The notes under the pieces are model-generated. The model did no database searches, had not been told where the DNA came from, and saw only the letters and a list, made by a program, of their open reading frames with translations. 64,000 nucleotides of DNA. Origin: Zoroaster sp. YZ-2022. Taxonomy: Eukaryota; Echinodermata; Asteroidea; Forcipulatida; Zoroasteridae. Positions within the stretch are counted from its first letter, which is position 1, and every line of letters begins with the position of its first letter. This document shows positions 1-28,682 of this stretch, piece by piece. The stretch is from contig CM055819.1 of NCBI GenBank assembly GCA_029582265.1, forward strand, positions 43,870,227-43,934,226, read 5' to 3'. The position numbers were made by a program, and so were the translations under genes.

Positions 1-560
1 ATTTTGTTCATCCACGATATATCATAAAACATATATCACGCTTTTCGATAGTATCGCGATTATTTTTTTTCATTTACGCATGATTGCTTAAGAGCCAATA
101 ACCACAGGTATGTACCCTTCTACAAGCATCACAATAAATCGCCAGCGTTTAGCCGAGAGACACCTACAATCACGCCAATCGTGAGTGCACCATGGACATT
201 GGCAAATTCGTTTACATAGTGTGTGTACTTTCTGTAATTTCTGACTCAACTTACAATTGTGATTTTAGTTTTTCAATCGTTTTTCAACTTGAAAAGGTTC
301 TCGCCCAAGCTTAGCGTGCTGTGCTTGCGAGCCCAATAGAAGTTTATGTAGATAAAGCCCTACCTTGTTATTTTAACTTAATATTAATATTTGGCATGCT
401 AAATTGGGTTGATTAATAATTAGGGTAAAGTGTATGTTACTGAGTGGCATCCTGTTATATTTCTTTAAAAAATATTTACAGTGTAGGGGCCTACCCCCAT
501 TGTGTTGTTACATGTAACTTATAACCCTAATACAGCGCTCTTTATTTTTCTTCTTTTTAG

Positions 561-618
561 GCTTTCATCATCAGCAAAAATGAAGAGAATCGTGTTCCAA
601 ATGTCACGTATTGACCAT
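561..618 (+). other. candidate small coding exon, unidentified
   Basis: A long pyrimidine tract ending in AG (to 560) precedes 58 bases that end at a consensus GTAAGT donor (619). An ATG at 580 opens 13 codons up to the donor. No homology is recognisable. It reads toward the 3' end of the minus-strand RAG1-like gene. It could be chance splice signals. The rest of 1-1127 shows no gene I can support. Confidence 0.2.
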
Positions 619-1127
619 GTAAGTAATCTAGTGTTGTTTACAGATAATGTACATGTATAGCCTGTGGAAGATTTTCAATTTGTTAGTCAAAGGCGTACGG
701 TATACAAGTTGACATGCTTATTTTCAAAAATAGTACATTAAGGCCAACAATCAAATTGCGGTTATTGCTAAACTACCATTCATATGGATATAAGAAATCA
801 TCCACAATTTTTGATAAACCATCCACAATTTTTTTGTAAACCTTGTAATTTTGTTTTTTGTCTTTAACAATCACAAAATAGCAGCATAACTGGGGATGGG
901 GCAGTGGTCACCTGGAAAGAACAAATATTTTCGGGTGGGGGTGGTGGGGAAGGGGAAGCGCTTTACGTACTTGTTTTAATAACTCTGAGCAGGTGTCTGA
1001 GCAGATAAGAATTTGAGCTGGGGTCGCTACTAGCCTTGTGGTGGATTATTGCATCCTACCGCACAGTTACGTCACTGCACAATACAATTATTTATTTGCA
1101 TATGATGTTACTTATTTTATTTTGATG

Positions 1128-4100
1128 CTAGTTTTCATGTTTCCTCCAAGGTTCTACAGTGCTAGCTCGGATGTCTGGTATTGTGCTAGTGAGATGTCTT
1201 CTCATTATGGCCATCAACCGTTGCAAATTGTCACGCATCCCATGAACTATTCGCCCAATACGGTTGAAGTGTGTGTGGATCAATTCTCCACCTTGTTCAT
1301 TAAGGAGTCCAAACCCAACTCGGAACTTAGAGAGCTGTTGTACCGCATGGTCTTCCAGAAGATGAAGTTTTGGGGTGATGTTTTGGCCGGGGAACATACG
1401 CCGATATGTGTCCAGGAGGTCCTTGATACAGATACCTAAAGAGAAGGAATTATACATTTATAAGGGAATCACAAAGGATGAAATCATCTACAAAGCTCAA
1501 ACGATATGTCAGAATGGAAAGTGAAAAAGAAAATATGGAATGGCAGAAGTGAGTACCGATCTACTTAATGTACAGTAATTACCTATGCGCTGGATTTCTT
1601 CAGATGAAAGGGGATTTGCATGGTTGATGCCTTGATGTACATCCGCAAATTTAAGGAAAATGTCACGATACTTATGCTTCACTGTCAAAGCTTCCCTCAT
1701 AAGGCGATTTTGACAGGCGAGTGGTAAGTCATCAGTCATGTGCTCGATTACAGCCTGCCGAGGGGCGTCAGTAAGAGCGTCAATGACTTCAACCTAGAAG
1801 AGGAAGGAAAAAAGTCACTTTTTTGGAATACAAATTCCCCACTGCAGAATTTCAAATACTCCAGTGAGTACATATGTCATGTGTGCATCTCCTGATCAGA
1901 TTATCTATGGATTAAACCTTATATGGATTACCTTACAGCATTTGTGTACGTGGTTCCCAACGAAGGCTTTACCATGGTAGGCTTGGCGTTGCACGTTAAA
2001 TTTGGAAAGCACCTTTTCTAAAGAGCTGACAATGGGACCAGTGCCAAAGGCAAGGTCAGCACTATTGGCCTCCTTTTCCTGTGGAGAAAAAAATATTAAA
2101 AATTTTACTGCTGTAAGATGCAATATCTAGTGCAGATTGGACTTGCCAACATGTTTTATCTGATCAATATTTTGATTGGAAATTGGAGATTAATTACCAA
2201 ATTCTGCACGTCAATTCGCAACTGGACTGCCTCCATTGCCATTTGACAAAATTCAGCACTGGCATCCTGCTGTGTCGTGTTCTGAAGGACGTACAAGGGT
2301 AGGTCATCTTCAATTTCCTCCAGTCGGGCCTGCTTGTCTCGTAACTGCTTGGATATATTATGTTGTTTGCTGATGCTTGCTGAGACTTGTGCGTCAAAAT
2401 TGTTGACTTCAAGATCGTCCTCGTCAGTATCAACTTCTGCATCAGCTCGCAACTTGAACAGATGACTGTCTAAGTCATGACATTCACCCTCGAAGAGGTC
2501 ATACAGCTTTTTGAACACTCCCAATGAGATGTGCAAACTTGGGAGAATGACCTGTAGTATGGGGGGAAATCAGTGAATGTTACTACATGTATACATGTAC
2601 ATAATAACTGATTGTTTTACTTGAGTCTGGATTTGAGTTGACTCCTGAATTGAGATAATCCTTCAGTGAATTACACATGGATGCTCATCTCATGGTTTAT
2701 GGAACTTATTTTTTCCAAAACCACACTGTGTAACATTTGTGGGAATTCTTAAAGGGTTAGCAGTAACACAGTGTGGGGGTAAAGTTGAACTGATAATTAT
2801 CAACAAACTTAAATACAAGTCATGTAGTGCATGTACATGTACACATGTTGCTCAAATATTTGGTCTTGTAGTTCATGCACGTACACTGACAATTGGGCCT
2901 ATACACCATTGTACATGTATTACTAAGTACATTATGTTATACATGTAGTTGTTCCACATTATTTTATTCAAATGAGTGTCTGCACTTAATAATAAAAACA
3001 CAGTATACAATGTTCTTACATGGTCTAGTTCAATTGAAATCATGGGCTCATTAACAACACTAACAGAAACATATTTTGCTCGATTCCTTTTGGCACCGTC
3101 ATTAGTAAAGACGCTGTAGTTGTTCCTTATGGTCTGTAGGGTACGAGCTGATGATGGTCCACGTTGTTTATATGGTTGCTGCATCATTTCCTTTGAAGCA
3201 GTACAGTAGATGCAACAATAGCGAGCTGTTAAAAAAAGAAATAAAACAAAGTTCAATTTGAAGAATTAGTCAAATCTGCATAACACTACTTCTTGTACAT
3301 GTAGACCATATGTACAGGTAAGTTCAAAGATGTACATGTACATGTACTGCACATACATGTAGATGTACACAGATATGGATTTATTTGTGCATCCTCTGCA
3401 CTACTTACCATTGCATCCACAGAGACCATACATCTTGTTCAGGAGCTCGTAATCCCCGAAACAGAAGAGTCGGATTGTCTTGTCACTGTTACGTAATAAA
3501 TGGAAGAAAAAACAATCAAAATTAGACTAGTTTGTGTACAGTGAATCAAATATACAAGTTTTGTTGTGTCATTTAATTCTGATACTTTACATACAACGAG
3601 CATGTATTTGCTGAAATGAATAGCAACAAACAAAAAAACTTACCGCCACTTGGTTGTTGACAATGTGGCTACCTGGTCCATGATCTTTGGGAGAGTGCAT
3701 TGAAGGTTGACTAGAGAGTCATTTCCCTCGAAGCAACAGAACACTACTGTGTTAGCTAGTGAATTTGGGTGATGCACATTGACGATTTGGAAATTTAACT
3801 TGAATGACGTCCCTCCCTTATCCCCTCCTATTTTCACCCAAATCTCGGTTGAGGGAATAACATCATTGTGCCAAGTTAAGCATCCATTTCTAGAAAGAAA
3901 ACAAAAACAGAAAATTCATTTGCAATCATGTGATTGTGGTGCACACATTTATGCATCAAACGAGTACATGTATAGTGTAAAATTTTAAAAGGTACATTCC
4001 AAGTTGAATTTTACTAACTTGTCAAGACGATCCAGGTAGTCCAGAATCATACTACTCAGGTTGTTGATGTAAACAATGGGGGTTTCTCTGGTTATAAAGC

Positions 4101-6070
4101 CATTGATTCCATCTGCCTTTGTGGAGGGGAACACAAGGTTGGCCAGCTCTCCTTGTAGGCTACAATCCTTAAGTAGGATTTTTTGATGATGCCTCATCTT
4201 CCTTTCAGATGTCACCTTAAAGCTAGTACCGAGGTACCTACATGTAGTACAAATTCAAAAAGAAAATATTTAAAAACATGTTCTAAAATTGATATTTAAC
4301 TTGTATAATTGGCTTGTTTATTCTGAATATTGTTTTATCTGAATACAAATGTATAAACTTTTCAATAGTCAGGTACTTATGTGAGAATACATGTGGTTAT
4401 TAAGTTTATGTATGAGAAATAATTAAATATGTTTGAATGTGACCTATTGTAATTAAATAAAATGTAAATATGTTCACAGTTTAATTACTTATTCTGATTA
4501 GGCCAGAACTGTATAATTACCGTCTGATCTTGCGTAGCTGGTCCCAGGCGAGGTGACAATCTTTCATCATCGCAAATGCTTTGTTTGCTGACATTGTACA
4601 TGTATTGCTATCTGTGTTGTGATGACCACTCATGTCTGATGATTTACACCCGGTCACCTTCTGTATTAAGGCAGGCTGTAATTGTGTGCAATATATGAAT
4701 ATTTACTTTTAAATTATTATATTTGTAAAATAGCTTCATTTCAATTCAAATATAATTTTGTGTGTGCAGTATTAATTTATAAAGTATCCTTATTCTCCGT
4801 AGAGTCACATAATTCTATTTTTGTATTTTATAATCTATGTACAGCACTTTAAAACAAATATATTTATGATTATTTTTTATGTATGTAATATTCAGTGAAC
4901 TATTTATTCTGTATTGAATTGCAAAACATTTCACGATTCAGCATTTGCTCATGAGAATTGGTGATGCAGAAAACCAAATGTAAATTATTTATTATTATAA
5001 TTCATATTTTATTTGTGAACATCACTTACTCGTCCCCCGGTGTGTAGGAAAGCTTTGTGCTCTTTGTCTTGTTGAAGTTTTATCCACATCCAACGGTCAG
5101 TGGCCTGTTCAATTTCAATTGGTATGGGATTGCCTGCTTCGTACTTTGATGCCAGAGCTTTGAGAATTCGTGCAGCATTTGTTGCACCATTATCTTCAGA
5201 AACTTGTGGGTCAACTTGCACTTGTCCCCGGAATATTTTAACTGTTGGCTTAGTAGGCATTTTTGATGTGCACTGGTGATTTACAAATTTACAGATTTTA
5301 CCAATATTGTGGCAAGTTATACATGCAACATCCAGATTGTCCAGCTGTACACAAAGAACTCTTGGGCTTGCTGTGATATTGCTGACATGTATTGATACAA
5401 GGCATACTGGGCATTTAATTTTAGCAACTTTGTTGTGTGTGAAATAATTAGACAAACATGTTGCGCAAAAATTATGTTGACAAGGTGTCTGTACCGATGG
5501 CCTGCTCAATATGCACAGGCAGATAGCACATGTAAATAAGTTTTGTTCCTCATGTCCAAATACCTCAAGGTTGGGGGGAACTTGCTGTTGGCCCGTGAGC
5601 GTAGGCATTATCAAATGCTCAAATATGCTGTGTGATCCAACGTCAAAGGGAAGGTTAGGCGCGGCTGTTAACTGTTCATTCTGTACATGAATGTACCCGC
5701 CTCTCTTTGCTTTTTTATTTGCTGTACGACAGCCACCTTTTGCTTGAGATGTCACCAAGCTGCACACGTAACAGTAGCCCGTCCTCTGATGTTTTGGCCA
5801 GTCCCTCTGTATGTGTTGTGTGCAAGTTGCCTGCTTATTGCAATAGTTTCGAGTACCAGACCTCTGGTGTCTCACTTTCCTTGCGCAGAGTTCACACAAA
5901 TTATGTGGATGCTGTTCTGGAGAATCATCCCAGATGTTGATGTCAAAAACGCCTTGTATCTCCTTACAGTAATCCTTGCAAATCGTAGGTTTCCTATTTG
6001 TGATTTTGATCCTGTATGAACATATTCTACATATTTTGGTTAAACCTAACTGGTGGAATTTGAAGCTCAT
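1128..6070 (-). CDS. RAG1-like DDE recombinase/transposase, ten exons, apparently intact
   Basis: Exons on the minus strand: 6070-5030, 4675-4521, 4237-4019, 3889-3644, 3485-3409, 3225-3020, 2551-2198, 2078-1932, 1793-1583, 1435-1128. All introns are GT/AG, all phases match, and the sum is 2964 nt (987 aa, TAG stop), close to the ~1040 aa of vertebrate RAG1. Residues ~14-62 form a cysteine-rich N-terminal zinc region (CRIC near 14, CELC near 59). Residues 181-223 are a C3HC4 RING (C181, C184, C197, H199, C202, C205, C220, C223), followed by a CxxC...HxC finger (250-267). In the core I align D495 (KIGGDKGG), D565 (FGDYELL) and E932 (LLNEQGGE) with RAG1 D600/D708/E962, and C584/C587 and H910/H915 with its zinc ligands C727/C730/H937/H942. 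The H-x4-H spacing is the same as in RAG1. Family knowledge: RAG1 and relatives cut DNA at recombination signals or element ends. Inference: a nuclear DNA recombinase, either a RAG-like/N-RAG-type transposon protein or a domesticated copy. The start is the first ATG ahead of the zinc region. Confidence 0.85.
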
Positions 6071-7079
6071 TTTGAAGAGAGTAATAAATATATTGAAAAA
6101 GACACTATGTGTACTGCTGTCATAACTTACACCTTTAAAGTTTGAGTACTTCTGTCAAAGGCTGTCATACCCCTTTAAAACACCGCCTACTGCCTTTAAC
6201 GTTAACGTTGAGTGTGCACAGACTTCGTACACATATACTGCACACAGTATCCGTACACAAAATGCATAATACGTACTGTACGTAAAAATTGTATTGCGCG
6301 CGCTATTTGTGTTGCTGGTACCCGCAATCAATGCATGATGTTGAAACAGGAAAACATTTTTATAATGGGAACCAATGAAAACAACGCGATCGTCTGAAAC
6401 GAGTTTCATGGACACGGTGAATGGTAAATTGTCACTTTTTAACTCACCGTTGCTATTAAAATACAAATGTCCCAGAGTTTAAACACTAATTTATGTTTGT
6501 AAAATATATTAAAGGCAACAGGAAAGGCATACGATGTTTTAATGAATGCTTCGTTTATTAATAATTCATTTTTTTCTACACCGATGTTTTTCGGAATAAA
6601 TTACGAATCAAGTTTGAAAATGCAACACTAAAATTACAATTTAACAATCTTAATTCGTTTTTTCAATTTTTTATTGACTAAAAACAATATCTTTTTTCTA
6701 AATAATTTTGAATCAATTAAAAAAAAAAAAATTAAACTCGCATCACCTCATCAAATTTGTTTTTTAAATGTTGACGTCATCAAACATCAAAAAAAAATTC
6801 TGAGTAGCGTCTTGCGCCGATGTAGTAGGGGAAAAACAAACTATGACGTCATCAACATCTCACACAACACACCATCCCTTTTTTTAGTCTTATAACAGTC
6901 ACACCCCTACTACTACCCAACAAATTTATTTAAAACAAATCATTTTTTTGGTACTTGGTCCAGGACCGGCATCTGACATACTACTTGAGCTTATAATGTA
7001 TTTTAAGCAAGATTTATCCATGAAGTGTTTCTTACCATTCGTTGTTTGTGGAATGTTATAATAACGCGTTATTTTACAG
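6071..7079. other. upstream region of the RAG1-like gene, no gene seen
   Basis: AT-rich sequence that should hold the promoter and 5' UTR of the minus-strand RAG1-like gene. I see no coding potential I trust. A CACTATG at 6103-6109 resembles a RAG-family heptamer but points the wrong way for an element end. Confidence 0.4.
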
Positions 7080-7434
7080 GAGACATTTGTGGTCAAACCA
7101 ACATCAACATAACCAGTTCCCTTCACTCTTGACATACCTGATTACTGGGTCTTTGAATGCCGTTGGTTTATCACAAATCCTTTGGAAACATTCATATACA
7201 TAGATGTTGTCCGTGTCAGTATATCAGCGTATCAGGAGTTATCATTTGAGCGGGTGATTGGTAGTAATCGTAACGAGACAACTCTTATATATGAATACAC
7301 GTTGGACACGACACTGCCGAACGGAACGTCCTTCTACTTCAGTGGGAACAACATTACAATATCATTTTCATCCTGCCGGTATGTCAGAAGTGCGCCCTCA
7401 TTGATGGTAATCTTACGATATGAGGATGATGGTG
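7080..7434 (+). pseudogene. unit 1 CUB-like exon, frameshifted near its start
   Basis: Acceptor AG at 7078-7079 and a GTAATA donor at 7435. The first codons read DICGQTNI, like the DMCGTSNN opening of the later CUB exons. The domain then continues in another frame from about 7131 (FECRWFITNP, the conserved Cys-Arg-Trp of CUB) through YRYVRS... to RYEDDG. A net one-base shift lies between 7082 and 7130. This copy is the most divergent of the array and may be its oldest member. Confidence 0.5.
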
Positions 7435-7861
7435 GTAATAAGTGGATCATAATGTCATCCAGATCATAACGTTACATCAACAATTGTCACCGAATCATAA
7501 TGGAAAACTTAAAGTGGTTCATTATGTAATCCAGACCTATTATCAAACAGGTCTAATGGATATTATATATATATTACCCAGAATAATCGGCTCACAATGT
7601 TATCCAGACCAAAAGTGGCTGTTATCATTACGACATCCCTAAACTGACCATAATGTATTTTTATCAAGCATAAGCATATTATTTAAAAAGTACACTGTTA
7701 TTATTACTGTTACCCAGCAGAAATACAGTTAGATACATAAATGTATGATACTATAAATTTACAAATCATATCACAATTTGAAATACAGGACTAACCGTCA
7801 TGAAAAGTGAATTAAATAAAATCACAAGGAAACTGTTTATTATGTGAACGAAGAAAAATGT

Positions 7862-7925
7862 ACTTAAGCAGGATTTGAACCAGTTACCGTATTGGAACTC
7901 TACCAACTGAGCTATCTAATCCGAG
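7862..7925 (-). repeat. tRNA-like sequence (SINE head or tRNA pseudogene)
   Basis: Reverse complement carries an A-box-like TAGCTCAGTTGGTAGAG and a B-box-like GGTTCAAATCC about 30 bases later, with a plausible anticodon arm between. Flanks show no mature tRNA context, so a SINE remnant is more likely than a functional tRNA. Confidence 0.5.
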
Positions 7926-8002
7926 CCTTATTGGTCATTCTCAACATTTATTTTAAAAAATACAAAGATTGCCTTGACATGCTATAAACCTTTGCTTTTT
8001 AG

Positions 8003-8116
8003 GTGTGTGTAATGTTGAGCAGATACTCTGTAAGCCGTATAGAAAGTGTCTACCAATAAGAGTTGCTTGCAATTATGTTGTGGATTGCCCAGATTACACG
8101 GATGAAATAAACTGTG
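8003..8116 (+). CDS. unit 1 LDL-receptor class A (LDLa) exon
   Basis: 114-nt exon between a TTTTTAG acceptor and a GTGAGC donor, phase 1 at both ends. The translation has the six-cysteine LDLa pattern ending CPDYTDEINC, with the acidic Ca2+-binding residues (D..D..DE) before the last Cys. It is an extracellular ligand-binding module of the receptor-like array that follows, and is intact. Confidence 0.8.
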
Positions 8117-8199
8117 GTGAGCGTTAACATTTATGTGGAAGTTGTTGTGTACTTAATAATTTTAGTTATATTCTACAATTCTCTCAATAATATACTTGT

Positions 8200-9640
8200 T
8201 TTGAGAGTCTCCTCTAGACACGTTTGCTTTATGAGGACCTTCACCACCTATAATCACTCTCGTCTGAGTTCTTTACCGATACATGGTTTTTTATGTTGTA
8301 TTGATTGACGAGCTTGCTTTGAGAGTCTCCTCTAGACAAGCTTGCTTTATAGAGACCTGCATCAACTATAATCACTCTTGTCTGAGTTCTTTACAGATAC
8401 ATGTTTTTGTATGTTGTATTGATTGACAAGCTTGCTTTAAGTTGCTTTATAGAAACCTGCACCAGCTATAATCACTCTTGTCTGAGTTTTTTTTACTGAT
8501 ACATGTTTTTGTATGTTGTATTGATTAACGAGCTTGCTTTATGGAGACCTGCACCAACTATAATCACTCTCATCTGAGTTCTTTACAGATACATGTTTTT
8601 GTATGTTGTATTGATTGACAAGCTTGCTTTATAGAGACCTCCACCAACTATAATCACTCTTGTCTGAGTTCTTTACAGATACATGTTTTTGTATGTTGTG
8701 TTGGTTGACAAGCTTGCTTTATGGAGACCTCCACCAACTATAATCACTCTTGTCTGAGTTCTTTACAGATACATGTTTTTGTATGTTGTATTGATTGACA
8801 AGCTTGCTTTAAGTTGCTTTATAGAAACCTGCACCAGCTATAATCACTCTTGTCTGAGTTTTTTTTACTGATACATGTTTTTGTATGTTGTATTGATTAA
8901 CGAGCTTGCTTTATGGAGACCTGCACCAACTATAATCACTCTCATCTGAGTTCTTTACAGATACATGTTTTTGTATGTTGTATTGATTGACAAGCTTGCT
9001 TTATAGAGACCTCCACCAACTATAATCACTCTTGTCTGAGTTCTTTACAGATACATGTTTTTGTATGTTGTGTTGGTTGACAAGCTTGCTTTATGGAGAC
9101 CTCCACCAACTATAATCACTCTTGTCTGAGTTCTTTACAGATACATGTTTTTGTATGTTGTATTGATTGACAAGCTTGCTTTCAGTTGTTTTATAGAAAC
9201 CTGCACCAGCTATAATCACTCTTGTCTGAGTTTTTTTTACTGATACATGTTTTTTGTATGTTGTATTGATTAACGAGCTTGCTTTATGGAGACCTGCACC
9301 AACTATAATCACTCTCATCTGAGTTCTTTACAGATACATGTTTTTGTATGTTGTATTGATTGACAAGCTTGCTTTATAGAGACCTCCACCAACTATAATC
9401 ACTCTTGTCTGAGTTCTTTACAGATACATGTTTTTGTATGTTGTGTTGGTTGACAAGCTTGCTTTATGGAGACCTCCACCAACTATAATCACTCTTGTCT
9501 GAGTTCTTTACAGATACATGTTTTGTATGTTGTATTGATTGACAAGCTTGCTTTATAGAGACCTGCACCAACTATAATCACTCGTCTGAGTTCTTTACAG
9601 ATACATGTTTTTGTATGTTGTATTGGTTGAGTGGAAAATA
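8200..9640. repeat. ~90 bp minisatellite with ~370 bp higher-order period
   Basis: About 15 monomers, each with the phrase ACATGTTTTTGTATGTTGT. Most are spaced 90 bp. A longer ~102 bp variant (TTTTTTTACTG in place of TTCTTTACAG) recurs at about 8500, 8873 and 9243, giving a ~370 bp super-repeat. Lies in the intron after the unit 1 LDLa exon. Open frames inside are repeat artefacts. Confidence 0.9.
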
Positions 9641-9684
9641 ATATAAACCGAACTGAACTTCCATTGGAAACACATTATATTTAC

Positions 9685-9740
9685 CTCCTTCTCCTTCTCC
9701 TTCTCCTTCTCCTTCTCCTTCTCCTTCTCCTTCTCCTTCT
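9685..9740. repeat. (CTCCTT)n microsatellite
   Basis: About nine copies of a six-base pyrimidine unit. Confidence 0.9.
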
Positions 9741-9849
9741 TATCGGTTGTCTACAAAAAACACATACTTGCAAACTTCACATGAACTTGAAACTGAGCAT
9801 ATACTTAAAAACATGAGTTGTGACGTCATGATGAGGTCATCAGATATCG

Positions 9850-10345
9850 AATTGCGATAAATCAAAGTTTAATATTTAAAAACATCATATCGCAACAACC
9901 ACAAGAGGTAAATTCACAATTTTCGCACCATTGCACAGATCGTTAATTGTCGAAAAATATGTACACAAAGGTGACCCCAATTTGACCTTACTTCTTGTCC
10001 AAACCGGAAGTCAAAGTTTAATATTTAAAACAATCATATCTCAACAACCACGAGAGATAAATTCACAGTTTTTGCACCATTGTACAGATTGTTAATTGTC
10101 AAAAATATTTACAAAAAGGTGACCCCAATTTGACCTTTACTTCCTGTCTAAATCGGAATTCAAAGTTTAATATTTAACAAAATCATATCTCAACAACCAC
10201 AAAGGGTAAATTCACAATCTTTCCACGATTGTATAGATTGTTAATTGTCAAAAAATATTTACACAAAGGTGACCCCAATTTGACCTTTACTTCCTGTCCA
10301 AACCGGAAGTCAAACTTTAATATTAAAAACATATTTTCAAAACCG
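9850..10345. repeat. ~148 bp tandem repeat, three copies and a partial fourth
   Basis: The phrase CAAAGTTTAATATTTAA recurs at about 9863, 10011 and 10160 with a diverged fourth at 10311. Each unit also carries GGTGACCCCAATTTGACC. Non-coding intronic repeat. Confidence 0.8.
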
Positions 10346-10671
10346 TATTTTTTACGTAAACCGTAAAAAATTATAATCATGTACTCTTTAATATGTAAAA
10401 AAATATAATAATGCAAAGTTTCTTTAAAAAACATTCTGACGTCATCTTCACTGCCCTGACAAAACCGAACACCTATGTGTTTGTAATATAACAAACACTT
10501 CCGTCTAGTTTGTTGTTGTGGTTTGTGTGTGATATGGACACATTTTCGAAACGTTACAATTTACAGTAACGTTTCAAGAACTATAATGATAAATGGCTCA
10601 CCTTTTACCAGTGTTATCTTAACGTTCTGTTAATAATGAAGCTGTGTTACTTCCTCTGATTTGTTGCCCAG

Positions 10672-11114
10672 ACATGTGCGGTACTTCAAATAATCATCTG
10701 CAATTTGGAGAAGCGCTTACAATTCTGGGTGAAATTACCCGACAACCAGACGGAAATCGCATGTCTCACTTTGCCGTGTATTCGGGAACGTCAGCATCGT
10801 TTCCGAATACAAATTCTCTTTAATCGATCACCGACATCGTGGGCATTTCGTGTGTGTTTGGAAATTCACTGAGCCACCAGGAAGTCGAATCCGAATAGAG
10901 ATTATCGAATTTTCCAGTTCTTATTATATTTTGAAAGTTGGAAATGGGCTCGATCCTACTGACGGAGAGCCGATTGCAGTATTGGACGAGGATTTGCTGT
11001 ACGCGATGGAGGTGTTGTCTGTTGATTCGGGAGTCTGGATAGTGCTGGAATCGAACTGGCCGTATAGATTATTCAATAGACTACGAATGGTATTGACGGT
11101 TTATAACATGACTG
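10672..11114 (+). pseudogene. unit 2 CUB exon with a one-base deletion
   Basis: Acceptor CCCAG (to 10671), donor GTAACT (11115). Opens DMCGTSNNHLQFGEALTI and ends VLTVYNMTG like its siblings. The frame breaks near 10816, where siblings have one more T before TCTCTTTAATC, giving an in-frame TAA. From there the CUB core continues in the shifted frame (CVWKFTEPPGSRIRIEI, GEPIAVLDED). No LDLa exons follow before unit 3, so this unit is also incomplete. Confidence 0.75.
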
Positions 11115-11914
11115 GTAACTTCATTTCAAAACAGTATATGTAAAACTCCATCGGACTTGTATTATATTATGCTTATTTTATTGACAATTGTACATAACTG
11201 CTTTACAGCTGAATTACAACAATACTGCAGTTAAATGGAATCATAATTTTTTAACTTAAACCCTGAAAATAATGAATGTTATTAAAAGAAAAAAACAATT
11301 GAGTTGTTTATATTGCAGATAATCCATTGTGTTCAAAGAAATTATTTGAAAATCTTAACTATCTTAACTAAATACTAAATATGTATAAAATGAGAACACC
11401 TTGGAGACTGGGACAATTTTACAATCATTTTATTCAAAGAACACTCAGTCAATATCATAATTAAGCAAATCAAAGGGTCAACCCACTATAAACAAAATGA
11501 AATGTAAACATTGCCGTGGCAAAACAAAACACTTAATACGCCAATGTAAACTAGAGACACTGGCCATATCTATGTAAGGTATATGGACAGGCTGCGGGTG
11601 TACTCTGCTCAATATATTTCATTGATCGGAGTAGGCGTGGTACGACATAAATGTGTTTTACCTGATACAAATTATGTTTGTCTTTCCTCTATCCCTCTAT
11701 CTCACCTAACCATCTCTCTTTGTTCCCCCTCTTCTGCATCCGTCTGCAATTTTGTTGTTGTTGTGGTTTGTCTGTGATGGGCACATTTTCCAAGCATCAC
11801 TTTTTTCACAATAAAACCAAATTATTACATGATAAATGTATCACCTTTTAGCAGTGTTATCATAACGTTATGTGAATAATGAAGCTGTGTTACTTCCTCT
11901 GATTTGTTGCCCAG

Positions 11915-12224
11915 ACATGTGTGGTACTTCAAATAATCATCTGCGATTTGGAGAAGCACTTACAATTATGGGGGAAACTATCAGACAATCAGACGGAAAT
12001 GTCATGTCTCACTTTTGTTTTTGGGGACGTCAGCATCATTTCCGAATACTGATGTCTTTTTAGTCGACCAGCGATATCCTAGGGATTTCGTGTGTCCTTG
12101 GAAATTCACTGAGCCGCCGGGGAGTCGAATTCGAATTGACATTCTTGAATTTTCCAGTTATGATAATATTTTAAAAGTTGGAAATGGAGTCAATCCTACT
12201 GACGGAGAGCCGATTGCAGTATTG
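11915..12224 (+). pseudogene. unit 3 CUB exon, frameshifted and truncated
   Basis: Same acceptor and opening as unit 2. A small deletion near 12012-12022 replaces the HFAVYSGT segment and shifts the frame. The CUB then resumes (FPNTDVFLVDQRY...) until IAVLN at 12224, where unrelated LINE-like sequence begins. The last third of the domain, including the VDSGVWIVLES segment, is absent. Confidence 0.75.
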
Positions 12225-12530
12225 AACCATCTTGAAGAAGATTTTTGTCCACGCCAAGACGTCATACTTTAAATTCTCTGCATTTGTCTATACAAAGCCA
12301 TCCAGTAAATTTTATCTAGTTCCAATCCTGTGAAGACGTTGACTGTTATTTCTAAGTCCATTTGTATCCCGCCTTTTTTGCTCTTGTTGTCGTTAAAGTG
12401 AAGTCTTTGATGTATGAGTGTTTAGGCATTCGGGCGATGTGGCTGAGGTACTTTTGCTGTTGGCGACCAGTGTATATAGTTTCGATTTTTGTGATCTTTC
12501 GAAGGTCGTTATTGGTTCACAATATATTCT
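12225..12530 (-). mobile_element. LINE-derived fragment
   Basis: On the minus strand about 40 residues read like the C-terminal part of a LINE ORF2, including YLSHIARMPKHS, with stops further on. It abuts the truncated unit 3 CUB exon and probably explains the truncation. Clade not assigned. Confidence 0.5.
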
Positions 12531-12760
12531 TAAATGACGATTGCCCAATGACGGTTAGCCGGCTAGAATCCTATATAGCAGCGGGTTCCATGATATTTAT
12601 ATATCAATTTACAGTCAGAATTTTACAAACAGGTACCGTATTAGAGCTTACAATTAGAGCATCGATTCACAATATATTTTTTCTGTATTATTTCTTTTCA
12701 CTCCATTATCTAAATGGCTTTAATTATATATATATTTTTTTTTCTTGATCATTATTTAAG

Positions 12761-12871
12761 AGTGTGATGACGATCAGTTTGTATGCCCATCTGGTCTTCG
12801 ATGCCTTAATACATCGTCTATCTGTGACGGCCGACTGGACTGCGATGCTTACGAAGATGAATTAGGGTGTG
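12761..12871 (+). CDS. unit 3 LDLa exon 1
   Basis: 111 nt, phase 1-1, acceptor TTTAAG, donor GTAAGG. Six cysteines, QFVCPSGLRCLNTSSICDG then DCDAYEDELGC. The usual C-terminal SDE is YEDE here. Open reading frame intact. Confidence 0.75.
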
Positions 12872-13064
12872 GTAAGGAAAGCTACAGGAGTGATCCGTAT
12901 TCTCTAAAATATTCGAAATTATCCTTCGGAGGTGGGCACTATTTGTAATAGCTAGTCATGTTTGTTTTTATCAGCGAAGACTTTACAGACCCAGACTGAG
13001 TGTTTTAATGATCATATCTGTCTCTTTCTCGGTCTAAAACACAGGACATTTTTGTGTTTCTTAG

Positions 13065-13175
13065 GTGGGTGTGGTGAACACTATTACGCATGCGCATCGG
13101 GAGACTGTATCCCAAGGTACCAACTATGTAACGGGAAAATTGATTGTGTGGACTTAACGGACGAGTTTTTGTGCG
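13065..13175 (+). CDS. unit 3 LDLa exon 2
   Basis: 111 nt, phase 1-1, acceptor TTCTTAG, donor [26 protein letters not shown] then DCVDLTDEFLC: canonical six-cysteine LDLa with acidic Ca2+ cage residues. Intact. Confidence 0.8.
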
Positions 13176-13812
13176 GTTAGTATCAAAGAAGGTTTTGTTT
13201 GTGTGAAAATGTGTTCAGGTTAAACATTAGACTTAATGTCAGACATTATGCTACTACATAAATGCAGCTTACTGGTTTGTATTTCTTGAATATCCTTAAA
13301 AAAAGAAATATGTAAACCAGCAAAAAGAAGTTAATTTGAATTAGTTACATCATTGCATTTTATTCAAAGGTCTCTTAGTCAATAACAAATCAATGGGTCA
13401 ACCCACTTAAAAAATGTTTTTAAGTGGGTTGACCATTTAATGATGTCTAAAATTTACAGTGGCAAAACAAAACAATTGAGTACCACTCAATTTATTTCAT
13501 TGATTTGAGTAGGAGAGGACACGTCGTAAAATGTGTTTTACCTGATACAAATTATGTTTGCCTGATCCCTCTATCTATACTAACCATCTCTCTTCATCTC
13601 CCTCATCTTCTGCTTTTGCCTGCAGTTTTGTTGTTATTGTGGTTTGTGTGCAATGGACATATTTTCCAATCAATTTGCAGTAATGTTTCAAGAACAATTT
13701 CTCAATAAAACCACATTATTACACGATAAATGTATTACCTTTTATCAATATTATCTAAACGGTATGTTGATAATGAATGAAGCTGTGTTACTTCGTCTGA
13801 TTTGTTGTCCAG

Positions 13813-14250
13813 ACATGTGCGGTACTTCAAATAATCATCTGCGATTTGGAGAAGCACTTACACTTCTAGGGGAAGATACCTTACAACCAGACGGAAATCG
13901 TATAACTTACTTTGCCGTTTATTCGGGAACGTCAGCATCGTTTCCGAATACTAATGTCTCTGTAATGGGGCACCCGAATACTGCAAATTTTTAGTGTGTT
14001 TGGAAATTCACTGAGCCGCCAGGAAGTCGAATCCGAATAGAGATTATCGATTTTTCCGGCTATATTTTGAAAGTTGGAAATTGTGTCGATCCTACTTACG
14101 GAGAGCCGATTGCAGTATTGGAAGAAGATTTGCTGTACGCGATGGAGGTATTGTCTGTTGATTCGGGAGTCTGGATAGTGCTGGAATCGAAGTGGTCGTA
14201 TGGATCATTGTCTAGACTAAGAATTGTGTTGACAGTTTATAAAATGACTG
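13813..14250 (+). pseudogene. unit 4 CUB exon with nonsense codon
   Basis: Opens DMCGTSNNHLRFGEALTL and ends VLTVYKMTG before GTAGGT. A TAG at 13992-13994 stands where unit 5 has GAG (NFECVWKF), a single G-to-T change. A further in-frame deletion shortens the FSSYGYIL segment to FSGYIL. Otherwise nearly identical to unit 5, so the nonsense mutation looks recent. Confidence 0.8.
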
Positions 14251-14319
14251 GTAGGTTCATTTCAAACATTATCTGTAAAAATCCATCGGACTTTATATTA
14301 ATTGATTTAATTTTGCCCT

Positions 14320-14460
14320 ACACCGACGTGTGTATAGCACTGTATACTCAGTGCTTTCCGAGTGTCTGTGGAAAAACTACACAGGCGACTCAGGCGGGAT
14401 TCGAACCCACGACCTCCTGCTTACGAGTGCAGACGTCTTAACCTCTCGACCACCGAGCTT
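14320..14460 (-). repeat. tRNA-derived SINE fragment
   Basis: Reverse complement has a tRNA-like head with A box GTGGTCGAGAGG and B box GGTTCGAATCC, followed by a body that partly matches 47545-47625. Sits in the intron after the unit 4 CUB exon. Not called as a tRNA gene because the anticodon arm pairs poorly and the body is shared with another repeat copy. Confidence 0.6.
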
Positions 14461-14854
14461 TATATTATTATATTATTATGTTATTCATGTTTTTATGTTA
14501 TTGACTATTACACATAACTGCTTTACAGCTGAATTACAACAACATTACAGTTAAATGGCCGATGAAATTATAAATCTTTAACTTTATCTTTAAAATAAAG
14601 AAACGAACAACTGAGTTGTTTATATTGCAGAGTTCCGTTAAAGGTTCGCTGAACTTGAGATCCATGGTGTTCAAAGAAATTACATGAAAACCTAAACGAA
14701 ATATCTCTAAAATAAGAACGCTTTGGTGAATGGGTGAATTCTACACTCATTTATCCGTTATCAGAGTTATATCATAGGAGCTTTATTCGATAAAATACTT
14801 ATGAATCTAAATGGCTTTAATTGAAATTTTAGATTTTCTTGATCATAATTTAAG

Positions 14855-14965
14855 AGTGTGATGACGATCAGATTGTATGCCCATCTGGTCTTCAATGCCT
14901 TAATACATCGTCTATCTGTGACGGCCGACGAGACTGCGACGCTTACGAGGATGAATTAGGGTGTG
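14855..14965 (+). CDS. unit 4 LDLa exon 1
   Basis: 111 nt, phase 1-1, donor GTAAGG. Reads QIVCPSGLQCLNTSSICDG then a full C-terminal half ending DELGC; differs from unit 3 by a few substitutions. Intact. Confidence 0.75.
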
Positions 14966-15166
14966 GTAAGGAAAACTATAGGAGTGATTAATTTTCTGTA
15001 CAATCTGCAAATAATGGAGGCGGGCAATATTTATAATAGCCAGTCATTTAATATTTTTGATATTTTTTTTCATTAACGAAGACTTTAAAGACCCAGACTG
15101 AGTGTTTTAATGATCGTATCTGTCTATTTCTCGGTCTAAAACAAAGAGCATTTTTGTATTTCCAAG

Positions 15167-15277
15167 GTGAGTGTGGTGAACACCATTACGCATGCGCATC
15201 AGGAGACTGTATCCCAAGGTACCAGCTATGTAACGGGCGGATAGACTGTGGGGACTTCTCAGACGAGGTTTTGTGCG
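15167..15277 (+). CDS. unit 4 LDLa exon 2
   Basis: 111 nt, phase 1-1, acceptor TTTCCAAG, donor [26 protein letters not shown] then [11 protein letters not shown], a canonical LDLa with the D..DxSDE calcium motif. Intact. Confidence 0.8.
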
Positions 15278-15960
15278 GTTAGTATAAGGATCAAACTGGG
15301 ACACCAAGGTTTGTTAGTGTCAAACTTTGTTCAGGTGTCATACATAGGCTATCAAATAAATGCAGCTTACTGGTTTATATTTCTTGAACATCATTTATAA
15401 AAAGGAAATGTGTAAACCAGCAAAGAGAAGTTAATTTAAATTAGTTACATCATTGCATTTTATTCAAAGGTCTTTCAGTCAATATCACAGTTATGCAAAT
15501 GAAGGGTCAACCCACTGTAAACAAGTCTAAAAATTGCAGTGGCAAAACAAAACACTTAGTACGCCAATGTAAACTGGAGACACTGACCATATCTATTTAA
15601 GATATGGACAGGCTGTGGGTGTACCACTCTATTTATTTCATTGATTTGAGTAGTCGTAACGAGGACACGTCGTAAATGTGTTTTACCTGATACAAATTAT
15701 GTTTGCCTGATCCCTCTATCTATACTAACCATCTCTCTTCATCTCCCCCATCTTCTGCTTTTGCCTGCAGTTTTGTTGTTATTGTGGTTTGTGTGCAATG
15801 AACATATTTTTCAAGCAATTTGCAGTAATTTTTCAAATACATTTTTCCCCCAATAAAACCACATTATTACACGATAAATGTATCACCTTTTAGCAGTATT
15901 ATCTAAACGGTCTGTTGATAATGAATGAAGCTGTGTTACTTCGTCTGATTTGTTGTCCAG

Positions 15961-16413
15961 ACATGTGCGGTACTTCAAATAATCATCTGCGATTTGGAGA
16001 AGCACTTACACTTGAAACACTTCTGAGGGAAACTACCCGACAACCAGACGGAAATCGCATAACTTACTTTGCCGTTTATTCGGGAACGTCAGCATCGTTT
16101 CCAAATACTAATGTCTCTTTAATGGGGCATCCGAATACTGCGAATTTTGAGTGTGTTTGGAAATTCACTGAGCCGCCAGTAAGTCGAATCCGAATAGAGA
16201 TTATCGATTTTTCCTCTTATGGTTATATTTTGAAAGTTGGAAATGGACTCGATCCTACTGACGGAGAGCTGATTGCAGTATTGGACGAGGATTTGCTGTA
16301 CGCGATGGAGGTATTGTCTGTTGATTCGGGAGTCTGGATAGTGCTGGAATCGAAGTGGGGGTATGCAGCATTGTCTAGACTAAGAATTGTATTGACGGTT
16401 TATAACATGACTG
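15961..16413 (+). CDS. unit 5 CUB exon, intact
   Basis: 453 nt, phase 1 at both ends, acceptor TTGTCCAG, donor GTAGGT. Open throughout: DMCGTSNNHLRFGEA..., ECVWKFTEPPVSRIRIEI, LKVGNGLDPTDGE, VDSGVWIVLESKW, LRIVLTVYNMTG. The CVWKF/PP/RI and L-x-VGNG motifs match CUB domains (Cys-x-W, then I..F, then L.V.DG and the late FxS strand). Compared with siblings it has four extra residues near ALTLETLLRET. Predicted extracellular, followed by two LDLa exons. Confidence 0.8.
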
Positions 16414-16842
16414 GTAGGTTCATTTCAAACATTATCTGTAAAAATCCATCGAACTTTATATTATTATATTATTTATGTTTTTATGTTATTGACTATTACA
16501 CATAACTGCTTTACAGCTGAATTACAACAACATTACAGTTAAATGGCCGATGAAATTATAAATTTTTAACTTTACCTTTAAAATAAGGAAACGAACAACT
16601 GAGTTGTTTATATTGCAGAGTTCCGTTAAAGGTTCGCTGAACTTGAGATCCATGGTGTTCAAAGAAATTACATGAAAACCTAAACGAAATATCTCTAAAC
16701 TAAGAACGCTTTGGTGAATGGGTGAATTCTACACTCATTTATCCGTTATCAGAGTTATATCATAGGAGCTTTATTCGATAAAATACTTATGAATCTAAAT
16801 GGCTTTAATTGAAATTTTAGATTTTCTTGATCATAATTTAAG

Positions 16843-16953
16843 AGTGTGATGACGATCAGATTGTATGCCCATCTGGTCTTCAATGCCTTAATACATCGTC
16901 TATCTGTGACGGCCGACGAGACTGCGACGCTTACGAGGATGAATTAGGCTGTG
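16843..16953 (+). CDS. unit 5 LDLa exon 1
   Basis: 111 nt, phase 1-1, nearly identical to unit 4 LDLa exon 1, donor GTAAGG. Intact six-cysteine module. Confidence 0.75.
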
Positions 16954-17189
16954 GTAAGGAAAACTACAAGAGTGATGAGTTGTATATAAAATCTTCCAAA
17001 TTATCCCTCGGGGCGGGCAATATTTGTAATAGCCAGTCATCTAAATATTTTAGATGTTTTATTTATTTATTTTTATTTTTATTTTTATTTATTTTTATAT
17101 TTTTTTTTTGATCAACGAAGACTGAGTGTTTTAATGATCGTATCTGTCTCTTTCTCAGTCTAAAACAAACATGTTTTTTTTATTCCTAG

Positions 17190-17300
17190 GTGAGTGTAGT
17201 GATCACTATTATGCATGCGCATCAGGAGACTGTATACCGAGATACCATCTATGTAACGGAGAGAAAGATTGTAAGGACTTCATGGACGAGTTTTTTTGCG
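17190..17300 (+). CDS. unit 5 LDLa exon 2
   Basis: 111 nt, phase 1-1. [20 protein letters not shown] then DCKDFMDEFFC: open, but the usual SDE Ser is Met and the Gly after DC is Lys, so calcium binding may be altered. Confidence 0.75.
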
Positions 17301-18017
17301 GTTAGTATAAGAATCAAACTGGAACCCAAGGTTTTGTTGGTGTCAAAGTTTGTTCAGGTTAAACATTAGACTTAATGTCAGACATAGGCTATCAAATAAA
17401 TGCAGCTTACCCGTTTATATTTCTTGAATACCGTATGCTTTATAAAAAGGAAATGTATAAACCATCAAAGAGAAGTTAATTTGAATAAGCTACATCGTAG
17501 CATTTTATTCAAAGGTCTCTCAGTCAATATCATAATTATCCAAATCGATGGGTCACCTCACTTTATAAAAAAAATGAACTCTAAAAATTGCAATGGCAAA
17601 ACAAAACACTTAGTACGCCAATGTAAACTGGAGACACTGATATACATATCTATTTAATTATGGGCAGGCTGTCACTGTGGGTGTGCCACTCAATTTATTT
17701 CATTGATTGAAATAGGTGTAATGAGGACACGCCGTAAATACGTTTTACCAAATACAATTATGTTTACCTTTCCTCTCTTCCTCTATCTCACCTAACCATC
17801 TCTCTTCGTCACCCTTCTTCTGCATCTGTCTACAATTGTGTTGTTCATTGTTGCGCACATTTTCTAAGCATCCATAATTTGTAATAACGTTTGGAGAACA
17901 CTTTTTTCTCTCGATAAAACCACATTATTACATGATAAATGTATCACCTTTTAGCAGTGTTATCTTAACGTTCTGTGAATAATGAAGCTGTGTTACTTCC
18001 TCTGATTTGTTGCCCAG

Positions 18018-18460
18018 ACATATGCGGTACTTCAAATAATCATCTGCGATTTGGAGAAGCGCTTACAATTCTGGGGAATCTACTCGACAATCAGACGATA
18101 ATCGCATATCTCACTTTGCCGTGTATTCGGGAACGTCAGCATCGTTTCCGAGTACTGAATTCTCTTTAATCAACCATCGATATTATGGGCATTTCGTGTG
18201 TGTTTGGAAATTCACTGAGCCGCCAGGAAGTCAAATTCGAATTGAGATTTTTGAATTTTCTAGTCCTGATTATATTGTGAAAGTTGGAAACGGAGTCGAT
18301 ACTTCTGACGGAGAGCCGATTGCAGTATTGGACGAGAGATTGCTGTACGTGATGGAGTTGTTGTCTGTTGATCCGGGAGTCTGGATAGTGCTGGAATCAA
18401 AACAGGCTGATGCAGTCTTATATAGACTAAGAATTGTATTGACGGTTTATAACCTGACTG
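18018..18460 (+). pseudogene. unit 6 CUB exon with one-base deletion
   Basis: Acceptor CCCAG, donor GTAGGT. Opens DICGTSNNHLRFGEALTI. Near 18070 it has one T fewer than unit 7 (TTCTGGGG against TTTTTGGGG), so the frame shifts and stops downstream. The remainder is well conserved in another frame (FVCVWKFTEPPGSQIRIEI ... VDPGVWIVLES). Confidence 0.75.
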
Positions 18461-18994
18461 GTAGGTTCATTTCAAAACAGTATCTGTAAAACTACGTCTG
18501 AGTTGTATTAGGATTATATTATTCATGGTTTATTGACTATTGGGAATAACACCTTTACAGCTGAATTACAAAATAATTACCATTAAATGGTCGATGAAAT
18601 TATAACTTTTTAACTTAAACTTTAAAATAAAGAAAGTTAGAAAAACAAAAAATAAGTTCTTAGAACTATACTTTTTAAAACTACCGATTGTAATATTTGT
18701 TTAACATTGTTTATATTGCAGAGTTACATTTAAGGTTCCCTGAACTCGAGATCAATGGAGTTCAAAACAATTATTTGAAAACTTTAACTATATATATATA
18801 TCTATAAAAAAAAAAACATGACGCGACGTCATCACCCGACGCAAGAATTTCATTAATATATATCACAGGAGCTTACGATTAGGGCTGCATTGAATTGATT
18901 TGCAATGTATTTCTTTTTTCTATTATTCGATAAAATAATTTCGAATCTAAATGGTTTTAATTCGAATTTTTGATTTTCTTGATCATAATTTAAG

Positions 18995-19105
18995 AGTGTG
19001 ATGACGATCAATTTGTATGCCCATCTGATCTTCAGTGCCTTAATACATCGTCTATCTGTGACGGCCGACTGGACTGCGATACTTACGAGGATGAATTAGG
19101 GTGTG
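18995..19105 (+). CDS. unit 6 LDLa exon 1
   Basis: 111 nt, phase 1-1, donor GTAAGG. QFVCPSDLQCLNTSSICDG then DCDTYEDELGC. Intact. Confidence 0.75.
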
Positions 19106-19313
19106 GTAAGGAAATCTACAGGTCTGGAGTGATTAATTTTCTCTAAAATCTTCCAAATTATCCCTCGGAGGCGGGCAATATTTGTTGTAGCCAGTCATCC
19201 AAATAGTTCAGTTTTTTTTTATCAATGAAGACTTTAAAGACACAGACTGGGTGTTTTTATGATCATATCTGTCACTTTCTCGATCTAAGATACAGGAATT
19301 TTTTTATTTCCAG

Positions 19314-19415
19314 GTGAGTGTAGTGATCATTATTACGCATGCGCATCAGGAACCTGTATCCCAATGTACCATCTATGTAACGGACAGAATGACTGTGGAG
19401 ACGAGGTTTTGTGCG
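19314..19415 (+). CDS. unit 6 LDLa exon 2, nine-base deletion
   Basis: 102 nt instead of 111; phases kept. [20 protein letters not shown] then DCGDEVLC: three residues of the Ca2+-binding loop (FSD in siblings) are missing, so folding of the module is doubtful although the frame is open. Confidence 0.7.
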
Positions 19416-19944
19416 GTTAGTATAAGGATCAAACTGGGACAGAAGGTTTTGTTGGTGTCAGACTTTGTTCATGTTAAATATTAGACTTAATGTCAGACAT
19501 AGGCTATCATATAACTGCAGCTTAGCCGTTTATATTTCTTGAATATGCTTTATAAAAAGGGTATGTGTAAACCAGGAAAGAGAAGTTAATTTGAATTAAC
19601 TTCATCAACATCATTGCATTTTATTCAAAGGTCTTTCAGTCAATATCATAATTATCCAAATGGAGCGTCAACCCACTATAAACAAAATAAAGTCTAAAAA
19701 TTGCAGTGGCAAAACAAAACATTTAATACGCCAATGTAAACTGGAGACACTGACCATATTTATTTAAGATATGGACAGACTCTGTGAGTACCACTCAATT
19801 TATTTCATTGATTGGAGTAGGTGTGGTGTAGACACGACATTAATGTGTTTTACCTGATACAAATTATGTTTGCCTTTCCTCTATCCCTCTATCTCACCTA
19901 ACCATCTCTCTTTGTTCCCCCTCTTCTGCATCCATCTGCAATGT

Positions 19945-19953
19945 TGTTGTTGC

Positions 19954-19997
<44 letters not shown>
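19945..19997. repeat. (TTG)n microsatellite
   Basis: About 17 trinucleotide copies with one GCT interruption, in the intron before the unit 7 CUB exon. Confidence 0.9.
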
Positions 19998-19998
<1 letters not shown>

Positions 19999-20173
19999 GG
20001 TTTGTGTGCGATGAGCACATTTTGCAAGTAACACAATTTGCAGTAATGTTAAAAAACAGTTTTTTCTGAATAAAACCACATTATTACACGATAAATGGCT
20101 TACCTTTTAGCAGTGTTATCTTAACGTTCTGTTAATAATGAAGCTGTGTTACTTCCTCTGATTTGTTGTCCAG

Positions 20174-20617
20174 ACATATGCGGTACTTCAACTAATCATC
20201 TGCAATTTGGAGAAGCGCTTACAATTTTTGGGGAATCTACTCAACAACCAGACGGACTTCGCATACCTCACTTTGCCGTGTATTCAGGAACGTCAGCATC
20301 ATTTCCGAGTACTAATGTCTCTTCAATCGACTATCGATATCCTGGGTATTTCGTGTGTGTTTGGAAATTCACTGAGCCGCCGGGGAGTCGAATTCGAATT
20401 GAGATTCTTGAATTTTCCTATTATGATTGTATTTTGAAAGTTGGAAATGGAGTGGATCCTACTGCCGGAGAGCCGATTGCAGTATTGGACGGGAGTTTCC
20501 TGTACGAAATGGAGGTGTTGTCTGTTGATTCGGGAGTCTGGATAGTGGTGGAATCGACCAGGCTCTATGCATCATTTAATAGACTAAGAATTGTTTTGAC
20601 GGTTTATAACATGACTG
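20174..20617 (+). CDS. unit 7 CUB exon, intact
   Basis: 444 nt, phase 1-1, acceptor TTGTCCAG, donor GTAGGT. Open: DICGTSTNHLQFGEALTI, FVCVWKFTEPPGSRIRIEIL, LKVGNGVDPTAGEPIAVLDG, VDSGVWIVVES, LRIVLTVYNMTG. The LDLa exon that should follow carries a transposon, so the unit as a whole is damaged. Confidence 0.8.
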
Positions 20618-21094
20618 GTAGGTTAATTTCAAAACAGTATATGTAAAACTACGTCTGAGTTGAATTAGGATATATTATTCATGGTTTATTGACTATTGCA
20701 CATAACACCTTTACAGCTGAATTACAACAATATTACAGTTAAATGGCATATGGAATTATACTTAAAGCTTTAAAATAAAGAAAATAAGTAAAAGAAACAA
20801 ACAATCGAGTTGTTTATATTGCACATTTCCGTTAAGGTTCGCTGAACTCAAGATCTATGGTGTTCAAAGAATTATTTGAAAACCTTGACTAAATAACTCA
20901 AAAATAAGAACACCTGGGAGAATCGAGGAAATTTTACAACCATTTACCGTTATTAGAGCGACATCATATGAGCTTACGATTAGGGCTGTATTGAATTGAC
21001 TCACAATGTATTTCTTTTCTCTATTATTTGATAAAACAATTTCGAATCTAAATGGCTTTAATTTGAATTTGTGATTTTTTGATCATAATTTAAG

Positions 21095-28655: not shown

Positions 28656-28682
<27 letters not shown>

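Follow-up and report, generated by a model that had tools for sequence, protein, structure and literature searches.

A Chapaev-type transposase gene with a RAG1-like N-terminal region in a starfish genome

A 64,000-nucleotide stretch of the starfish Zoroaster sp. YZ-2022 (contig CM055819.1, positions 43,870,227 to 43,934,226; hereafter the window) contains an intron-rich minus-strand gene that a sequence-only reading had taken for a relative of RAG1. Our analysis indicates that this is almost certainly the transposase gene of a cut-and-paste DNA transposon of the Chapaev superfamily – an element of ~8.0 kb that is multi-copy in the starfish genome. With its RAG1-like front, this Chapaev transposase is a distant cousin of RAG1, not a RAG1 gene.

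A Chapaev-type gene within a multi-copy element

Rebuilding the gene from the sequence gave ten minus-strand exons, running from window position 6070 to 1128 and separated by GT...AG introns, that splice into a protein of 987 residues followed by a stop. This reproduces the unbroken protein that had previously been joined by eye, and the residues singled out in it (D495, D565, E932, C584, C587, H910, and H915) all lie at the numbers given. Because splicing by eye is prone to fitting, independent support matters. An independently annotated Asterias amurensis protein (P0001, 989 amino acids) is 62% identical over 100% of the 987-residue protein, a second A. amurensis protein is 53% identical with 100% coverage, and in another genomic copy, L015, the same ten exons likewise join into an unbroken frame. 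The gene is real and intact, and the earlier reader assembled it correctly. Its proposed extent is right for the gene, but the element itself is larger, with homology to other copies beginning 1085 bases outside the left window edge and ending at window position 6663.

Pfam assigns the core to DUF1280 (residues 369-548; E 3.8e-22; score 79.4 bits, cut-off 25) and matches RING models at residues ~180-223, with zf-C3HC4 exceeding its cut-off; the RAG1 recombinase model is absent from the 15 families listed for the protein. Its relatives show the same pattern. All 19 homologues returned match DUF1280 at E values up to 1 (18 of 19 in a precomputed table), four also match RAG1_imp_bd, the family of the RAG1 N-terminus, and among the 25 of 39 matched families listed for them there is none for the RAG1 recombinase – so that homology searching leads away from the RAG1/RAGL membership that had been expected. 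Of the three proteins that a profile search returned, two were already known and the third was a weak fungal match.

Passages of PMC3985635 equate DUF1280 with the transposases of Chapaev transposons and report RAG1 and DUF1280 together in one small clade. Chapaev transposases carry a CHAPA zinc domain that resembles the RAG1 N-terminus, followed in two subgroups by a RING, and their cores are only distantly related to Transib cores, according to passages of PMC4411706. The hallmarks of the superfamily given in an excerpt of PMC4079192 are a 3- to 4-bp target-site duplication (TSD), 5'-CAC and GTG-3' ends, and C(2)C, LH, and H(4)H motifs. All three motifs accompany the acidic DDE residues in the starfish protein (C584xxC587, LH in SLHISLG, and H910xxxxH915), and together with the DUF1280 core, CAC...GTG ends, and a 4-bp TSD they give the element the full hallmark set.

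The ends and duplications were recovered by comparing copies across the genome (1,001,958,528 bases, 616 contigs). With window 1000-6400 as query, the 40 of 151 candidates that were scored yielded at least 49 matches. At least ten other copies are close to full length: eight of these, spread over five contigs, are 97-99% identical to the query, one is 94% identical, and one 84%. In a DUF1280 search, all 150 scored candidates (of 267) matched. Homology between the window copy and the others spans 7,749 bases in total. The left end starts CACGGCTGTTTCA and the right end in other copies is TGAAACAGCCGTG, forming 13-bp inverted repeats, and two copies measured from end to end are 7,992 and 8,010 bases long. 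Among 13 copies examined for ends, with two mismatches allowed, six had both; the left repeat carries one mismatch in four of these six, and five are flanked by identical 4-bp sequences (AGGT, CCTC, AGCA, TCTC, and CCTC). A search for terminal repeats within the window alone (25 of 55 pairs listed) had found none: of the two ends, the left lies beyond the window edge and the right is gone from this copy.

Two copies, L011 and L025 (the latter 84% identical to the window), have nearly the same flanks, cccgtggtcctc ... cctccagt. Their position in the same target sequence could reflect either insertions at the same point in a repeat or a duplication long ago.

RING-bearing Chapaevs have been described before, as passages of PMC4411706 make clear; the present element is a further family, in a starfish and with nine introns. 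The Chapaevs with CHAPA and RING domains of Kapitonov and Jurka (2007, through the same passages) have in common with it the core family, a CHAPA-like zinc region followed by a RING, CAC...GTG ends, a short TSD, and the C(2)C, LH, and H(4)H motifs. The starfish host and the nine introns distinguish our element from them, in a comparison made by description only. With Chapaev3 (Merrow, Garfield, and Conan), as portrayed in an excerpt of PMC4079192, it shares the superfamily, the terminal CAC, and the motif set. It differs from Chapaev3 in its varied 4-bp TSDs (AGGT, CCTC, AGCA, TCTC) as opposed to a 3-bp TWA, in its protein of 987 residues as opposed to 556 in Garfield_BM, and in its ten exons as opposed to one or two.

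To the observed open frame, order of parts, terminal repeats, 4-bp duplications, and multiplicity, the family would add a set of catalytic steps. By analogy with Chapaev, Transib, and RAG1 in general, the transcript would be spliced and nuclear, and the transposase may dimerise with the aid of its RING region and bind the CAC...GTG ends. Cutting would depend on metal ions and on D495, D565, and E936, set in a fold like that of RNase H, and a putative zinc site would be formed by C584, C587, H910, and H915. Insertion with a 4-base stagger would then leave the 4-bp duplications.

Homology to RAG1 and true RAG transposons in the genome

We used hhalign to compare a profile of the 19 homologues with one of 18 vertebrate RAG1 sequences, picked among the 120 listed from a total of 275. 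The N-terminal zinc region and RING aligned with RAG1 at a probability of 99.6% (E 4.7e-24) and the core aligned with the RAG1 core at 84% (E 7.6e-6, 472 columns), against a maximum of 0.7% in six control comparisons, one reversed and five column-shuffled. When the profile of the homologues was searched against solved structures, RAG1 chains came top over the N-terminal part only (9jpu residues 150-388, E 1.1e-15), followed by other RING proteins; no core match was present among the best 60 of 202 listed. The N-terminal half looks homologous to that of RAG1, and the core looks homologous too, though remotely. The alignment with RAG1 that had been proposed from end to end thus stands, remotely in the core, but it does not make this a RAG1 or RAGL gene, given the DUF1280 core, the 4-bp TSD, and the failure to find a RAG2-like partner in the sequences searched.

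The correspondence of individual residues was upheld in part. The profile alignment places D495 opposite the first aspartate of RAG1 CDGMGD and H910 and H915 opposite RAG1's two histidines, in agreement with the sequence-only reading. That reading had taken E932 as the catalytic glutamate, but E932 falls opposite the serine of RAG1 SEGNE and E936 opposite its second glutamate, corresponding to E962 of mouse RAG1. Both residues are conserved in 17 of 19 rows, so conservation cannot decide between them; the profile alignment favours E936 as the probable counterpart of the RAG1 catalytic glutamate. D565 lies two residues before RAG1's second aspartate in the gapped profile alignment. It is 19 residues from C584, the same distance as from D708 to C727 in RAG1, and with this equal spacing to the CxxC pair it coincides with the second aspartate if the alignment is left ungapped.

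A core tree of 14 rows separated eight Chapaev-type sequences from five vertebrate RAG1s and one starfish RAG1-like (RAG1L) sequence with support of 100/100, along a stem of ~5.9 changes per column and with a warning that long branches meet. The N-terminal tree gave the RAG/Chapaev split support of only 39/24 and a stem of ~0.24, its power being limited by an identity plateau: N-terminal identities lie at 0.21-0.24 even between RAG1 and the starfish RAG1L, whose cores are 36% identical. It is rather unlikely that RAG1 acquired its front from a RING-bearing Chapaev, or swapped fronts with one, after the cores parted, which would give front and core separate histories. The plateau leaves the tree test of such a swap without power and counts against it.

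In RAGL elements the duplications are 5 bp long and a RAG2-like partner is present. RAG1 and RAGL/ProtoRAG have in common with our element the zinc and RING portion of the N-terminus, a remotely homologous core, and the C2/H2 zinc-ligand pattern. The element differs from them in a core that falls in another clade, in a 4-bp rather than 5-bp TSD, in the lack of a RAG2-like partner among the sequences searched, and in ends that read CACGGCT rather than CACAGTG-like, with the first CAC in common. N-RAG-TP of Aplysia ends in sequences resembling recombination signal sequences (RSSs). It too holds a RAG1 N-terminal-like part within a transposon, as described in passages of PMC8355894.

The search for a partner covered the element's left arm and used pieces of the genome's own RAG2-like (RAG2L) sequence as queries. 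The left 2.2 kb contains no gene that we could find: the seven of 33 open stretches (at least 35 codons) that were scanned gave only a weak, irrelevant Pfam match, and none hit kelch, PHD, or RAG2. The kelch and PHD pieces of this RAG2L, with their locus of origin serving as positive control, matched the window copy no better than E 0.62 and copy C13 no better than E 0.22. The left arm also holds, at window 561-618 on the plus strand, a piece that resembles an exon, combining a strong acceptor (ctttttag), 13 open codons beginning with an ATG, and the donor GTAAGT; we found no protein gene leading from it.

The genome does contain true RAG1L-RAG2L transposons. A vertebrate RAG1 query, with 44 of 249 candidates scored, gave at least 31 matches – the best with 38% identity over the core at E 8.1e-107 – and none in the window. 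Nineteen matches were to the RAG1 N-terminal part alone, and eight of these lie a few kb upstream of a same-strand DUF1280 match when the lists are compared by eye. The best RAG1L lies within an 11.2-kb element (C2:32191324-32202560; loci L059, L058, L052, L060, and L062) and carries RAG1_imp_bd, a RING above the Pfam cut-off, and a RAG1 core model match (E 1.3e-86), although stops and frameshifts interrupt this copy. Convergent with it is a RAG2L gene that encodes kelch repeats and, beyond a short acidic stretch, a terminal part resembling PHD (E 0.023, which does not reach the cut-off). The Pfam RAG2 model had no match in the genome, but it also missed all 14 controls, and the RAG2L was subsequently recognised by reading the sequence. 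The termini of the 11.2-kb element are CGCAGTG and CACTGTG, and CGGTC flanks it on either side; another copy, which lies on C1 (L054, L061, and L063) and has an internal deletion, terminates in CACAGTG and TATCGTG, with TGCTG on either side. CACAGTG is present at two of the four ends and altered at the other two, and the duplications are 5 bp long.

The ring zinc finger (ZDD) is reported absent from echinoderm RAG1L in an excerpt of PMC7204232 and from echinoid RAG1L in one of PMC9885083, and the former reports invertebrate RAG2L without an acidic linker. In a partial literature search no title concerned a starfish RAG1L with a RING together with a RAG2L with an acidic stretch, and we claim no priority. 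The minus-strand L052 frame at 1675-3222, aligned by eye, seems to read M at the site of mouse RAG1 R848, a transposition-suppressing residue that is M in invertebrates according to passages of PMC8355894.

The gene had been thought to bear directly on the origin of V(D)J recombination. A Chapaev transposase does not, being silent on the RAG1 core and on V(D)J signals. Its interest lies elsewhere: passages of PMC4411706 (2015) state that, among mobile elements, CHAPA and RING domains are known only from these RAG1 relatives. An apparently intact, recently spread RING Chapaev beside a true RING-bearing RAGL offers two systems for testing the origin of the RAG1 N-terminus, and the RAG1L-RAG2L element with its RING is possibly the more interesting of the two.

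Competing readings of the gene and its present state

That the gene belongs with RAGL/ProtoRAG in the Transib superfamily, which would make it a direct relative of the V(D)J recombinase, is so improbable that we give it next to no credence. In its favour, the parts are ordered as in RAG1 (N-terminal zinc motifs, RING, a GGRP stretch, DDE core, and C2/H2 zinc ligands), both profile matches are present (N-terminal E 4.7e-24, core E 7.6e-6), and the 19-residue D565-C584 spacing equals that of RAG1 D708-C727. The zinc motifs and RING are not diagnostic, however, since Chapaevs carry them too (passages of PMC4411706). Against this lineage stand the 100/100 split in the core tree (with its long-branch warning), the RAG1 query (44 of 249 candidates scored) that finds true RAG1L in the genome and nothing in the window, a TSD of 4 bp and not 5, and the lack of a RAG2-like partner in the left-arm stretches scanned and in the comparison with RAG2L pieces (best E 0.22). 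The RSS-like heptamer CACAGTG is likewise missing from the ends, which read CACGGCT. Identity as a RAG1 orthologue or ProtoRAG was ruled out by the DUF1280 core, the 4-bp TSD, the failure to find a RAG2L in the stretches searched, and the true RAG1L elsewhere in the genome.

The other readings concern what has become of the window copy. Its right ~250 bases, including the right repeat, are missing and were not found elsewhere in the 64-kb window, although 593 bases of element are retained upstream of the start codon. Having lost its right end, the copy is not excisable by its own ends and could act only in trans on two-ended copies. The eight closest copies diverge from it by 0.8-1.3% in exons and 1.3-2.9% outside (0.8% and 1.8% for L015). 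The window gene differs from L015 by 18 nonsynonymous and 5 synonymous codon changes; the nonsynonymous rate (dN) is 0.0078, the synonymous rate (dS) 0.0080, and dN/dS 0.97, where random change would give 76% nonsynonymous. We trust dN/dS over the contrast between exons and non-coding parts because short repeats in introns align poorly. Purifying selection between copies was not found, though the lower exon divergence by itself hints at constraint. The unbroken frame had been ascribed to recent activity or selection: recent spread is supported by the eight copies and their small divergence, but selection on the window gene and L015 is not supported.

A domesticated host gene, no longer transposing and maintained by selection, is a very unlikely reading. 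In its favour, the frame is wholly open despite one lost element end, a full-length relative in Asterias is 62% identical, and several copies have exons less diverged than their non-coding parts. The dN/dS of ~1 against L015 nevertheless speaks against domestication, as do the many near-identical copies with TSDs and the two Asterias relatives (62% and 53%), which resemble transposon families and not one orthologue. We see an even chance that the window copy is recently dead – open only for lack of time and making no protein – which is compatible with Chapaev identity. The absent right end, the neutral pattern of change, and the breakage of nine of the ten other copies point that way; the intact frame, splice sites, and named catalytic and zinc residues, and the 593 bases kept upstream of the start codon, point the other.

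Several points weigh against the Chapaev reading of this gene. The assignment rests on Pfam and two papers, matched by description. One two-ended copy, L010, has flanks that differ (AGAT and ATAC), and the left repeat was not found in the fetched stretches of L014, L016, L017, and L018. Only L015 among the ten other near-full-length copies has an open frame; some of the single-base breaks in the nine others may be assembly errors, since the assembly was built partly from Nanopore reads (stated in an excerpt of PMC10394057).

Annotated parts and other features of the window

Table 1. Parts of the Chapaev-type element in the window
Feature	Window position	Strand	Basis
Element left arm, no gene found; extends 1085 bases past the window edge to CACGGCTGTTTCA (locus L039, position 6842)	1..1127	.	
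Chapaev-type transposase gene, 987 residues (CHAPA/RAG1-N-terminal-like zinc region, RING, DUF1280 core)	1128..6070	-	Spliced frame, Pfam, homologues, profile alignment
Exon 1, N-terminal zinc motifs and RING (RING residues ~180-223)	5030..6070	-	Spliced frame, Pfam, profile alignment
Exon 2	4521..4675	-	Spliced frame
Exon 3	4019..4237	-	Spliced frame
Exon 4, D495 in GGDKGG	3644..3889	-	Spliced frame, homologue alignment
Exon 5, D565 in FGDYE	3409..3485	-	Spliced frame, homologue alignment
Exon 6, candidate zinc ligands C584 and C587, C(2)C motif	3020..3225	-	Spliced frame, homologue alignment
Exon 7, LH motif in SLHISLG	2198..2551	-	Spliced frame
Exon 8	1932..2078	-	Spliced frame
Exon 9	1583..1793	-	Spliced frame
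Exon 10, H910/H915 (H(4)H motif) and E932/E936	1128..1435	-	Spliced frame, homologue and profile alignments
Right non-coding part retained; homology to other copies ends at 6663, ~250 bases and right repeat gone	6071..6663	.	

Beyond the element, similar exon-like stretches occur in series at window 7113-20646 on the plus strand and by eye resemble tandem CUB and LDLa domains; the two that were tested (15894-16502 and 20125-20643) had no Pfam hit at 0.001. Within this region, a minus-strand tRNA-like sequence without a clear anticodon at 14384-14459 (ARAGORN; Rfam 43.9 bits) is perhaps a tRNA-derived short interspersed nuclear element.

Fragments of RVT_1 reverse transcriptase lie at 28005-28655 on the plus strand, 31119-31935 on the minus strand (hits 31119-31559 and 31474-31935), and 32440-32871 on the plus strand. 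The region 26579-28658 appears Penelope-like by eye, its first open reading frame (ORF) having no Pfam hit. At 36292-38662 on the minus strand is a two-ORF remnant resembling a long interspersed nuclear element, with a zf-CCHC zinc-knuckle ORF and an Exo_endo_phos endonuclease (E 3.9e-20). Two near-identical coding-like stretches in opposite orientation, 51621-52004 (minus; no Pfam hit at 0.001) and 57109-57510 (plus), contain PCPIKGCHQRGLKRPDIHIRTQH and are probably an unnamed repeat.

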